Shown piece by piece: positions 1,208 through 61,124 of a DNA stretch of 64,000 bases; within the stretch, counting starts at the first letter, position 1, and every line of letters begins with the position of its first letter. A program made the position numbers and the translations under genes. The DNA lies in NCBI GenBank assembly GCA_025060595.1, contig JANXBX010000008.1, positions 16,629-80,628 of the forward strand, in the 5' to 3' direction. The DNA comes from Synergistota bacterium (lineage in GTDB: Bacteria; Synergistota; GBS-1). The notes beneath the pieces are model-generated. The model worked only from the letters and a program-made list of their open reading frames with translations. It was not told the origin of the DNA and did no database searches.

Positions 1208-2077
1208 TTAACCTTCTTTTGTCAAGCTTTCTTTGATACTATTAGTTATCTTAACCCAATCCTCTAAAGGGAGCTCTTCTGCTCTTACCGTTGCAGGTAG
1301 ATTCATTTCCGCTAATATAGACTTTAGCTTGATTTCTTCGAAGAGGACTTTGAGATTGTTAAGTAAGGTTTTCCTCTTCCTTTTAAAACCTTCTTTGACT
1401 ATCTTGAAAAATAGGTCTTCATCCTTAATACCCCATTTTCCTCTCGGGTTTTCATAAGGTTTAAGTTTTATGAAGGAGGATTCAACCTTAGGTTGGGGAT
1501 AAAATACCCTTGAAGGAACGTTAAAAAGGATCTGGACCTCTGCATAATATTGCACTATCACGCTTAAAGCTCCGCGGGTTTTTCTTTTTGGGGGTGAGGC
1601 GATTCTTTCCGCTACCTCCTTTTGAAGCATTAGGTATAGTTCATCTATAAGCCCTTTACCCTTTTCTAAAAGGTATAGTATTATTTCAGTTGCAATTCTA
1701 TAGGGGAGATTTGCCACAACTTTTACCTCATATTTCTTCTTCTCTTCCTCTAAAAAAGATAGATCTACCTTAAGAATATCATCTTCTATTAGATAAAAGT
1801 TTGGTTGACTTCCCATCACTTCATCTAGTACTTTGCATAGCTTTTCATCGACTTCTACACCTACGACCTTTGCTGCATATCTAGATAGGAAAAGAGATAG
1901 GTTGCCCATTCCCGAACCTATTTCTAATACGAAGGTATTTTTACCTAAATTTGCTACTCTGCATATCTTATCCAGTAGCTGGGGATCGTATAGAAAGCTC
2001 TGCCCCTTAGCCTTGCTAAATCTTAATTTAACTTTGTGAGCCAGGACCTTCATCTGTTTTAGGGTTAGATATTTCAT
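1208..2077 (-). CDS. rsmA: 16S rRNA (adenine1518-N6/adenine1519-N6)-dimethyltransferase
   Basis: KsgA/RsmA dimethylates two adjacent adenines in the 3' terminal helix of 16S rRNA during small-subunit maturation. Residues 51-60 carry the SAM-binding motif I (LEIGSGMGNL), and the N6-adenine methyltransferase motif IV NLPY is at 123-126. The C-terminal helical part includes the family-typical QPKVESSF segment and a basic KRKTLLNNL helix. The 289-residue length is normal. It is separated from the upstream tRNA-Pro gene by a hairpin terminator, so it must have its own promoter or depend on read-through. Confidence 0.96.
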   Translation of the reverse strand: MKYLTLKQMKVLAHKVKLRFSKAKGQSFLYDPQLLDKICRVANLGKNTFVLEIGSGMGNLSLFLSRYAAKVVGVEVDEKLCKVLDEVMGSQPNFYLIEDDILKVDLSFLEEEKKKYEVKVVANLPYRIATEIILYLLEKGKGLIDELYLMLQKEVAERIASPPKRKTRGALSVIVQYYAEVQILFNVPSRVFYPQPKVESSFIKLKPYENPRGKWGIKDEDLFFKIVKEGFKRKRKTLLNNLKVLFEEIKLKSILAEMNLPATVRAEELPLEDWVKITNSIKESLTKEG

Positions 2078-2090
2078 GGCTTTCTTAAAT

Positions 2091-2124
2091 AAAAAGGACC
2101 GGGTTAAACCGGTCCTTATTTTTT
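2091..2124 (-). terminator. Rho-independent terminator after tRNA-Pro
   Basis: A perfect 9-bp stem (2094-2102 with 2109-2117, AAGGACCGG) closes a 6-base loop and is flanked by A- and T-runs on both sides, so it could work on either strand. On the minus strand it sits between the tRNA and rsmA. Confidence 0.75.
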
Positions 2125-2133
2125 AAAACTAAA

Positions 2134-2212
2134 TGGTCGGGACGAGAGGATTTGAACCTCCGACCCCCTGCGCCCCATGCAGGTGCGCTAAACCAGGCTG
2201 CGCCACGCCCCG
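2134..2212 (-). tRNA. tRNA-Pro (anticodon GGG)
   Basis: The minus strand folds into a full cloverleaf of 79 bases: acceptor CGGGGCG paired with CGTCCCG (one G-U), D-stem GCGC, anticodon stem CCTGC/GCAGG with loop ATGGGGC (anticodon GGG), T-arm GGAGG/CCTCT with loop TTCAAAT, discriminator A and an encoded CCA. The G-rich D-arm and anticodon arm match bacterial tRNA-Pro. The D-loop is two bases longer than in common versions. Confidence 0.95.
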
Positions 2213-15682: not shown

Positions 15683-16525
15683 CTATATGTTCACATCCTT
15701 AAGCTTCATTTGAGCTTTTACTACAGAGGATATTACTCTGGATAGCGTTTCGAATTTTTCAACCGTTTTTTCCATAACTTCAAGAGCCCTATCAAAATTA
15801 TTTTTCTCTTCAAGGAGATTTTCTCTTGTTCCTGAAAGGAGCTCTGCTATGCGATAAAGCAAAGTGTAATTACTTTGCATGAATTCCATTAGCTGTTGTA
15901 AGGATTTCTGAACGCTGGTGAAAATTTCTCCCACAAGTTTAGTGCTTTCCAAGGCCTCGCTAACTGCTTTTGATAGCTCCCTTACCTGATCTGTTATGCT
16001 TTTAGCTACTTTGTTTGATTCTCCAGCTAGCTTTTGCACTTCAGAAGCCACCACAGCAAATCCCTTGCCAAACTCTCCAGCTCTTGCAGCTTCTATAGAT
16101 GCATTTAAAGCTAGTAGGTTTGTTTGCTTTGCAATTTTAGTTATTTCAATAGCCATGCTTTGTATTTCACTAAACATAGAAAGCGTATGAGAGGTTTTAT
16201 TTATGGATGAGAGAACCACTTCGCTTATCTTAGATATATCTGCACCAGATTTCTCCAGATCTTCAACTATTTGTTTATTAACCTCTCTAGATTTTTCTAT
16301 GCTTTCTATAAGGTTTTTACTTTCTTCCCCAAATTTTTCTGAAAGCTCTTCTATTTTCTTGCGAGTTTCTTCAAAGGTTTTTTCGAGCTCCTTTAGATTT
16401 CCTTGAGATTTTCTTACTCTTGAAAGAAGAGCCTCGTCAAGTTGCGACATGAATGATGTCATTAGGTTTTCTGCAAAAAACGCCGATAAAACTCTTTCAC
16501 TGCATTTATCTTTGGACCTTATCAT
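15683..16525 (-). CDS. Cytosolic methyl-accepting chemoreceptor (signalling domain only)
   Basis: A 280-residue soluble chemoreceptor without transmembrane segments or a ligand-binding domain. It is almost entirely coiled coil, with the hairpin-tip sequence that docks CheA/CheW ([18 protein letters not shown], then [12 protein letters not shown]). I chose the ATG at 16525 because GAAGGTG lies six bases upstream, overlapping the stop of the previous gene. An in-frame ATG at 16549 would start inside that gene. The partner is the ODP-type diiron protein directly upstream, the arrangement known for ODP-coupled receptors in which the diiron protein supplies the sensing. Confidence 0.88.
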
Positions 16526-16529
16526 GTTA

Positions 16530-17309
16530 TCACCTTCCGTAGATTTCATCTATTATATCTATTCCACACTTTAGGGTTTTAAGCCATTCAAGGAATTTCT
16601 TAACGTTTTCTCCCTTAATTATAGCTCCATGTTGTGGTGCTATTACGTTTATTTCCTTTCTTTCGACCAAGCTGAGCCACTTTTTGAGCACAACGCTTGA
16701 GGCAACATATCTTTTATGGAAGCCTTCCATTAGCTTTGTATGACTATTAAAGTCCTCCACAATTGGGTATCTCTTGCCCTTTTCAAATATTGCAGCTCCT
16801 ATATCGCCAGAGAAAAGAATCTTGGCCCTGGGATCATAGAGGTTGAAATTACCTGTTGAGTGAAGGAAATGAGCAGGTATTAACTCAAGCTCGACCCCTG
16901 AGGAAAGCTTTATCTTATCTCCGTTATCTGGTATGGGCACTACTCTTCTGTAATCGTATATGCCGAAGTGGGGAAGAAATCTTATCCACAGTTTCGATAT
17001 ATATATCCTTGCGTTTTCAGCTATGGAGAGCCAAAGCATTATTCCGGAGGATACATCTGGGTCTTGATGAGTGAAGAAGATATACTTTATCTTGCTTGGC
17101 TCTATTATTTCAGATACGTTAGCTAAAACTCTTGGGAAAACGTGAACTCCGCCTGGATCAAGTAAGACCGCTTCATTTCCATCGATTATCATATACTGGT
17201 TGGTTTGAACGATACCTTCTTCCTCCTTTTCCTCCCAAGCGAGAAATAGGAACTTATGGTTACTGTCTTCGTATAGGGTGATGTTTTCTGTCCCTTTTAT
17301 ATTTTGCAT
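16530..17309 (-). CDS. ODP-type diiron oxygen/iron sensor (metallo-beta-lactamase fold)
   Basis: A 259-residue metallo-beta-lactamase-fold protein related to the flavodiiron N-terminal domain but without a flavodoxin domain. The metal-site motif is HQDPD from His81, replacing the HxExDH of flavodiiron proteins, and this version marks the oxygen-binding diiron proteins. Further ligands lie in PAHFLHS, LFSGDIG and PQHGA. Such proteins are known, for instance in Treponema denticola, to sense O2 and iron for a soluble chemoreceptor encoded next to them, exactly as here. ATG at 17309 follows GGAGGTG; an in-frame ATG at 17324 would place that Shine-Dalgarno inside the gene. Confidence 0.87.
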
Positions 17310-17373
17310 CTTTGACACCTCCATTTTGTGGAATAGAAGTCAAGTTGATTATAGTTCAATTATATCATCTACC

Positions 17374-17402
17374 TTGAGCTGTTTAAAAAGCTGTGGTAAA
17401 AA
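17374..17402 (+). promoter_or_regulatory. Possible promoter of the tandem OFA transporter unit
   Basis: TTGAGC (17374-17379), 17 bases, TAAAAA (17397-17402), about 55 bases before the first start codon. The -10 match is weak. Confidence 0.35.
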
Positions 17403-50730: not shown

Positions 50731-50955
50731 TTAAGCCACCTCCTCCACTAATATTTTGTGAGATAATCCTCTTCCGATGGCGAATCTTAGGTTATCCTTT
50801 ATCACTATGATTGGGCCATCCGAGTTAGTTAAAACGCATAGATATTCTCCTTCCAGTAGACCTAATTCCTGCAATTTTTTAGCTGTTGTTTTTCCAGCAA
50901 TTATTTTTTTAATTTTTATCTTTTTACCGCTTTCTATCATTGACAAAGGTATCAT
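50731..50955 (-). CDS. feoA: FeoA family protein
   Basis: A 74-residue SH3-like protein that assists FeoB. The ITVIKDNLRFAIGRGLSHKI-type C-terminus and KKLQELGLLEGEY segment fit. Its ATG overlaps the stop of the regulator gene by 4 bases (ATGA). Confidence 0.9.
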   Translation of the reverse strand: MIPLSMIESGKKIKIKKIIAGKTTAKKLQELGLLEGEYLCVLTNSDGPIIVIKDNLRFAIGRGLSHKILVEEVA

Positions 50956-51593
50956 CCTGAAATCACCTCTACTAAGATTTTTTCCGCTTCTTCTTTTCTC
51001 AAAGAAACGTTTGTTCCCTTAATTAAGATTTCTATTGGATCCCCCAAGGGAGCAACATTTTTTACCTCTAGTTCCTCTCCTTTTATAAATCCCATATCGA
51101 GTAGTCTTCTTTTGAGAGATCCTGCTGCTATAATCTTGATTATTCTGGCTTTCGAACCTATATTTAGCTCATTTAGGCTTTTAAGGGGGGTATCGATTTG
51201 ATTTTCCAGGTTTTTTTCTGCCTCGAAGGAGCTCACAAAGCTTATTAGCTTTTCTAAGGTCTCATTACTTAAGAAATGCTCCATCTTACAAGCGTCACTT
51301 TCCGCAATCTCCTCTCTAACCTTGAGTATGTTTATTAGAAATCTTTTAAGCATGGTATGTCTATCCTTTATGGCTTTGGCTATGTTTATGCCGGCTTGGG
51401 TAAGCTCTATATATCCATACTTTTCTTGCTCTATTAATTTCATTTCCTTTAGCTTTTTTAAAGACTCTACAGCAGATGAAGCCTTAACTTTGAGTAAGCT
51501 TGCAAGATCTTTAACCCTAACAACCCCCTTTTCCTCTTTTAATGTTAATATTCCTTCCAAATAATCCTCTAATGCTGGTGTTAGCGTAAACAT
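50952..51593 (-). CDS. DtxR/MntR-family metal-dependent regulator with C-terminal FeoA-like domain
   Basis: A 213-residue repressor with an N-terminal winged helix (TPALEDYLEGILTLKEEKG, VRVKDLASLLKVKASSAVESLKKL), a metal-binding dimerisation region with conserved Cys, Glu and His (SDACKMEHFLS) and a C-terminal SH3/FeoA-like domain (GSLKRRLLDMGFIKGEELEV). It likely represses the operon when bound to Fe2+ or Mn2+. ATG at 51593 follows GGAGGTG by nine bases; an in-frame GTG at 51605 overlaps that site. A matching palindromic operator lies in its promoter. Confidence 0.9.
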   Translation of the reverse strand: MFTLTPALEDYLEGILTLKEEKGVVRVKDLASLLKVKASSAVESLKKLKEMKLIEQEKYGYIELTQAGINIAKAIKDRHTMLKRFLINILKVREEIAESDACKMEHFLSNETLEKLISFVSSFEAEKNLENQIDTPLKSLNELNIGSKARIIKIIAAGSLKRRLLDMGFIKGEELEVKNVAPLGDPIEILIKGTNVSLRKEEAEKILVEVISG

Positions 51594-51610
51594 GACTTTT
51601 GACACCTCCT

Positions 51611-60650: not shown

Positions 60651-61124
60651 TTATTTGGCTTTTTTCAAGAAGTTTATTATTTCTTCAACATCTGGGAGTT
60701 CCCTTATGGGATATATCTTAAAAAATATTATCTTCCCCTCTTCATCAACAATTATGTTTGCTCTTTCAGAAAAGCCGTCGTTTTCTCTAAATATGTTAAA
60801 CTTTTTGGCGGTTTCTCCATGAGGCCAGAAATCTGATAGAATTTTTAGCTTCTTTAAGCCTAAGCTTTCAGCCCATGCTTTCTTCGAAGGTATTGGATCT
60901 ACACTTAATCCCACAGGAATGGTGTTCAGTTCTAAGAAATTTTCATAGTTTTTCTCCAGAGACTCCATTTGTTGAGAACAAATTGAGGTCCATGCAAGTG
61001 GATGGAAAGAAAGAAGGATTTTCTTTCCTTTGCAGCTGGATAAGGTAAAATCTTCTCTGTTTTGATCCTTTAAGGTAAACTCTGGTGCTAAGCTTCCTAT
61101 TTCTAAGCCTTTTTGTTTACTCAT
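60651..61124 (-). CDS. Peroxiredoxin (AhpC/TSA family)
   Basis: A 157-residue thioredoxin-fold peroxidase. The peroxidatic Cys is Cys49 in HPLAWTSICS, with Thr46 in the usual place and Pro42 conserved, though the family motif PxxxT/SxxC shows Trp-Thr-Ser-Ile instead of the usual Phe-Thr. No clear resolving Cys partner beyond Cys31 is visible, so it is likely a 1-Cys or thiol-dependent form. It would remove peroxides in an anaerobe's cytosol. Confidence 0.88.
   Translation of the reverse strand: MSKQKGLEIGSLAPEFTLKDQNREDFTLSSCKGKKILLSFHPLAWTSICSQQMESLEKNYENFLELNTIPVGLSVDPIPSKKAWAESLGLKKLKILSDFWPHGETAKKFNIFRENDGFSERANIIVDEEGKIIFFKIYPIRELPDVEEIINFLKKAK

Follow-up and report, generated by a model that had tools for sequence, protein, structure and literature searches.

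Two adjoining genes lie on the minus strand at positions 15,683 to 17,309 of the window, the whole stretch of 64,000 nucleotides analysed here (Synergistota bacterium, contig JANXBX010000008.1). The first in the direction of reading, odp, encodes a putative oxygen-binding diiron protein (ODP) and is followed by the gene for a soluble chemoreceptor. The features of the locus, in the order in which they are read, are as follows.

17359..17387, minus strand: possible sigma-70-type promoter, TTTAAA - 17 - TATAAT, the second hexamer preceded by TG, some 50 nt 5' of the odp start; 10/12 in a consensus scan.
16530..17309, minus strand: odp, 259 aa from ATG 17309; PF19583 at 261 bits; 6qrq at E 1.1e-124.
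17055..17069, minus strand: HQDPD motif, H86-D90 of the 264-aa reading frame, with the diiron-ligand positions H86, D88 and D90; 100% conserved in 52 ODPs.
16526..16538, minus strand: ODP-receptor junction, GGA AGG TGA (end of odp), TAAC, then the receptor ATG; ribosome site inside the 3' end of odp.
15683..16525, minus strand: soluble chemoreceptor with the signalling hairpin only, 280 aa from ATG 16525; MCPsignal only; TM14 (3g67) at E 6e-35.
16412..16486, minus strand: receptor N-terminal box, residues 14-38; exceeded in conservation only by the tip; candidate ODP coupling site.
16025..16144, minus strand: receptor hairpin tip, residues 128-167; most conserved stretch, with an invariant 11-residue core; predicted CheA/CheW contact.
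15695..15760, minus strand: conserved receptor C-terminal end, residues 256-277; conservation above that of the arms; absent from the TM14 crystal construct.

The odp reading frame spans 16530-17324 (264 aa counted from an upstream ATG at 17324). The sequence GGAGGTG is found immediately 5' of ATG 17309, which is therefore the preferred start; this is also the position at which an earlier, sequence-only reading of the locus had placed the end of the pair. The receptor reading frame, 15683-16549, likewise contains an upstream ATG, at 16549, that was judged less likely to be the start than ATG 16525, because the final odp codons, GGA AGG TGA, provide an AGGTGAT-like ribosome site for the latter. 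This is a read-out of the letters and agrees with the earlier claim that the regulatory signals of the two genes overlap. The receptor ATG lies only 4 nt past the ODP stop codon on the same strand, so that the two genes are tightly coupled. A promoter and terminator scan of the region gave nothing above chance, and the promoter listed upstream of odp is a weak call since three promoter sites were found against 4.9 expected.

In a Pfam search the odp product matched the ODP family, PF19583, with 260.7 bits, the cut-off being 27.2. The closest solved structures are the ODPs of Thermotoga maritima (6qrq, 69% identity) and Treponema denticola (TDE2498; 6qnm, E 3.7e-94, 56% identity), with flavodiiron proteins (FDPs) far behind. 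Residues H86, Q87, D88, P89, D90, H155, D174, Q231 and H232 (numbering of the 264-aa frame) are invariant among 52 aligned ODPs, and the ligand positions H86, D88, D90, H155, D174, Q231 and H232 are those of both solved ODPs. The ligand set is thus intact, and includes as Q231 the glutamine at motif 5 that is an unusual ligand of the T. maritima ODP (PMC7785958). By analogy with these relatives, from which its iron content and O2 binding are taken, the protein is probably a diiron-centre protein that binds O2.

Two other identities were weighed. One is a common hydrolase of the metallo-beta-lactamase superfamily, either a zinc lactonase or a glyoxalase-like enzyme. It could account for a Lactamase_B match of 61.9 bits on the same protein, but the score of the ODP model is four times as high and HxDxD is found in place of the hydrolase HxHxDH. 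On this score and ligand set the hydrolase identity was ruled out, its probability being close to nil; in the sequence tree, moreover, the protein is placed among ODPs that include both solved ones, and the FDP outgroup is joined by a very long branch. The identification of an ODP by its HQDPD motif, proposed in the sequence-only reading, is upheld by these results, and the protein is not a lactonase. A very improbable alternative, if a less remote one, is that the diiron protein acts mainly as an enzyme (an O2/NO reductase or an O2 scavenger) and that the receptor is an unrelated neighbour. The metallo-beta-lactamase fold and a homologous diiron site are indeed common to ODPs and FDPs, and NCBIfam flavorubredoxin models match, although only weakly. 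FDPs, however, carry a flavodoxin domain and the ligand set HxExDH, whereas no flavodoxin or rubredoxin domain was found by Pfam in the 264-aa product, which matched only ODP and Lactamase_B. The host genome also encodes a separate full FDP (L002, 407 aa) with HTEPDH at the position of HQDPD, and in the window ODP the residues E, H and G of this protein are replaced by D at 88, V at 91 and an added Q at 231. The retention of the ODP-receptor pairing across phyla and the decay of the pair together, both described below, also argue against an enzyme with a chance neighbour.

The receptor has MCPsignal as its sole Pfam domain and no sensor domain. The maximum 19-residue hydropathy is only 0.75, and it is therefore regarded as having no membrane segment. 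These data accord with the earlier description of a chemoreceptor reduced to the signalling hairpin. Among solved structures the nearest to the receptor is TM14 of T. maritima, and the top Foldseek matches of an AlphaFold model of the receptor are TM14 chains. Alignment showed that the signalling tip is intact. A strict methylation motif was present in 3 of 57 ODP receptors as against 9 of the 12 other receptors examined in the host genome, and its near absence leads to the prediction that the ODP receptor is not methylated in the usual way and would lack the methylation adjustment of the genome's larger receptors.

The three receptors of the host genome without the motif are atypical in other respects. 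The product of L017:1030-1908 (+), on contig C1, is a soluble receptor of 292 aa whose N-terminal portion has a Rossmann-like stretch (VGGGKGALSLLKQF) matching no Pfam family. In L018:1192-2892 (+), on contig C6, the signalling domain is followed by a C-terminal phosphonate-binding domain (PF12974), the usual layout being sensor first. In L020:1033-1746 (+), on contig C1, MCPsignal is combined with an N-terminal protoglobin domain (PF11563, 67.6 bits); this short soluble receptor is possibly a second, haem-based oxygen receptor of this genome. On contig C17 a further receptor gene, L013:2-1315 (-), diverges from an adjoining 1-Cys peroxiredoxin gene at 1567-2208 (+).

An ODP is encoded by 41 of 185 genomes in Synergistota, the phylum of the window, and by 58 of 103 Thermotogota genomes. 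A PNAS study of ODPs from 2019 reportedly names eight phyla in its abstract. More than 90 natural pairs were obtained in this comparison. The order is nearly always ODP then receptor, the gene after odp encoding a receptor of about 280 aa at practically all loci for which the sequence extends far enough; the exceptions are contigs that end early and L033, which has none directly downstream and two receptors upstream. That the same order recurs at essentially all of the intact loci examined, in both phyla, indicates that the pairing is not due to chance. In the Thermotogota genome G289 both ODP and receptor are fragments lying side by side (L175:1452-1784, minus strand), and such joint decay is what would be predicted if the two were components of a single unit. 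CheA is present in 39 of the 41 ODP genomes of Synergistota compared with 89 of the 144 others (p ~1e-5, with relatedness of the genomes ignored). Some loci contain ODP reading frames of 415-439 aa; these were considered as fusions and rejected, as the extra N-terminal part looks like upstream read-through and has no domain-like character. In Thermotogota, L177:1691-3218 (-) and G237 have a tandem pair of ODPs before a single receptor, the extra ODP being 48-49% identical to that of the window.

Several known systems can be compared with the window pair. One T. maritima genome locus encodes the 6qrq sequence (100%) and, 9 nt downstream, the 3g67/TM14 sequence (100%). TM14 is thus the next gene after the crystallised ODP, and a thermophile pair has already been crystallised, as two separate structures. 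The T. maritima and window pairs have in common the gene order, the ligands, a hairpin-only receptor, the N-terminal box, the conserved C-terminal end and a thermophilic setting. They differ in sequence, the receptors sharing about 36% identity in the crystallised portion and the ODPs the level given above, and in spacing, the window genes being 4 nt apart with the ribosome site inside odp. The operon has also been described previously (PMC7319448), and the earlier suggestion that its occurrence in a probable thermophile extends the known case therefore falls. The same TREND paper reports from an earlier study that ODP-receptor operons occur in two gene orders, and that ODPs are also found with other signalling genes and in fusions (PMC7319448). 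In T. denticola the ODP serves chemotaxis as an oxygen sensor and its deletion alters CheA ordering, and the receptor TDE2496, which like that of the window is soluble and without a sensor module, modulates CheA (PMC7666581). By locus numbers TDE2496 is not directly beside odp (TDE2498), whereas the window genes adjoin. Given the identity to the T. denticola ODP and the retention of all its ligand positions, the two genes can nevertheless be regarded, as was first proposed from the letters, as a couple of the T. denticola type. ODP-GGDEF-receiver fusions in Thermotogota (L172:562-2589, minus strand; L173:1830-3851, plus strand) resemble the window pair in using the ODP as an input module, although here its partners are GGDEF and receiver domains of the same polypeptide and not a separate receptor. 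Most diiron ligands are gone from the ODP domain of L173, which may therefore no longer bind iron.

Gene trees bear on the history of the pair. The window receptor groups with those of Fervidobacteriaceae (Thermotogota) and not with those of other Synergistota, the joint set having support of 100/100. In the ODP tree the nearest sequences outside the window's family are from Fervidobacterium-like Thermotogota, at a fork that is not strongly supported. A single Synergistota clade was rejected for both proteins (p-AU 0.0006 for ODP and ~5e-47 for the receptor), in tests for which the groups were picked after identities had been seen and in which some receptor branches are long. L049, from another genome of the same family as the window genome, falls elsewhere. 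As both trees place the window pair with Fervidobacteriaceae, the two genes appear, on this sequence evidence, to have moved between phyla jointly.

The host genome (1.86 Mb, 99% complete) contains the components with which such a pair would work: a CheA gene followed by those for CheC and CheD, two for CheW, at least 12 receptor matches and flagellins. A second CheA-type dimerisation domain is also present (G000:C22:617-820, minus strand), in a 747-aa frame with no CheW-domain match. We consider it highly probable that the two genes form a chemosensory cassette in which an ODP sensor and a soluble receptor act on CheA to steer swimming. The ODP, with its metallo-beta-lactamase fold and non-haem diiron centre, would bind O2, the centre being dependent on Fe(II). 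It would then change state and act on the soluble, dimeric receptor encoded by the next gene, whose standard hairpin tip would join CheA and CheW and alter the activity of CheA. This change in activity would in turn make flagellar swimming respond to oxygen and iron. The binding of O2, the ODP-receptor contact, the effect on CheA and the taxis itself, with the direction of the response, are steps that we infer.

The pair might also couple to CheA in this way and yet sense chiefly iron or redox state and not oxygen, the lineage being probably anaerobic. We regard this as unlikely, though considerably less so than the enzyme or hydrolase readings. Work on T. denticola refers to the sensing of Fe(II) and O2, as judged from its title as cited in PMC7319448, and the protoglobin-receptor fusion of the host genome (L020) may itself sense O2. 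A DtxR-type iron regulator is also present in the window, but 34 kb away. Against such a role stands the ligand set, in which the protein does not differ from the solved O2-binding ODPs. The sequence-only reading had set the pair beside this regulator and a peroxiredoxin, both of which are indeed in the window:

50955-51605: iron-dependent repressor (DtxR-type), 34 kb from the pair.
60654-61124: peroxiredoxin, within the range of about 34-45 kb from the pair.

Neither is part of the locus, and at about 34-45 kb a link between these genes and the pair was ruled out.

With an oxygen-sensing cassette as the preferred reading, the question arises of where the ODP would contact its receptor. Conservation along the receptor is highest at the tip, followed by the box at residues 14-38 and then by the C-terminal end, all three lying above the arms. 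The box has the consensus SAFFxxxLMxSFMxQLDExLxxRV, and its residues S24, F25, D30 and R36 are invariant in a 30-sequence receptor alignment. The box is a candidate ODP contact because it is conserved above the arms and is placed at the end of the hairpin away from the tip. Of the 278 residues of TM14 the crystal construct comprises 42-252; the two conserved ends thus lie outside it and can be viewed as candidate docking sites. In the AlphaFold receptor model the box is contained in a single long N-terminal helix and does not form a cap domain of its own; with a monomer pTM of only 0.45, the contact site cannot be read from this model.

The distribution of the box was determined by searching whole genomes (185 of the own phylum and 103 of Thermotogota) with a profile of the first 50 receptor residues. 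Matches were obtained in 40 of 41 ODP genomes of Synergistota and none of the 144 without ODP, and in 56 of 58 ODP genomes of Thermotogota and none of the 45 without, exact tests on these counts ignoring the relatedness of the genomes. There is one match per genome, on the ODP-linked receptor wherever the contigs let linkage be seen, with the exception of G073, which has a second, partial match at a contig end. In G005, the Synergistota ODP genome with no match, the ODP is cut by the contig end; G289, with no match among Thermotogota, is the genome with the decayed pair. G209 (Thermotogota) was rejected as an ODP genome lacking a box receptor, as the adjoining receptor has a diverged box. The specificity of the box for ODP genomes is in part a matter of the orthology of these receptors. 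The receptors that partner ODPs in Nitrospirota, Aquificota, Thermodesulfobacteriota and Campylobacterota either lack the box or have none that can be recognised, and it cannot therefore be the sole coupling route; other solutions exist.

Cryo-ET of T. denticola gave no clear position for the ODP in the array, and it was suggested that it may act peripherally (PMC7666581). This weakens the case for a fixed docking site and allows for a peripheral or transient contact. Our best candidate for the ODP contact, put forward tentatively and with a little less than even confidence, is the receptor end away from the tip, built by the box and the C-terminal end. The broader proposal is held just as cautiously: that these two elements, outside the TM14 fragment, form a dedicated ODP dock where membrane receptors hold their sensor, and that the pair has been inherited, and moved across phyla, as a unit.

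The ODP-receptor pair itself was already known; what is new here is the candidate docking box and the evidence of joint transfer. The comparison yields a concrete candidate site, of about 25 N-terminal residues together with the C-terminal end. The pairing, the apparent joint transfer and the joint decay favour the idea that ODP and receptor function as a unit in thermophiles from both phyla. If the proposed dock is correct, the sensor-less receptor would be a receptor with a detachable sensor encoded by a separate gene.
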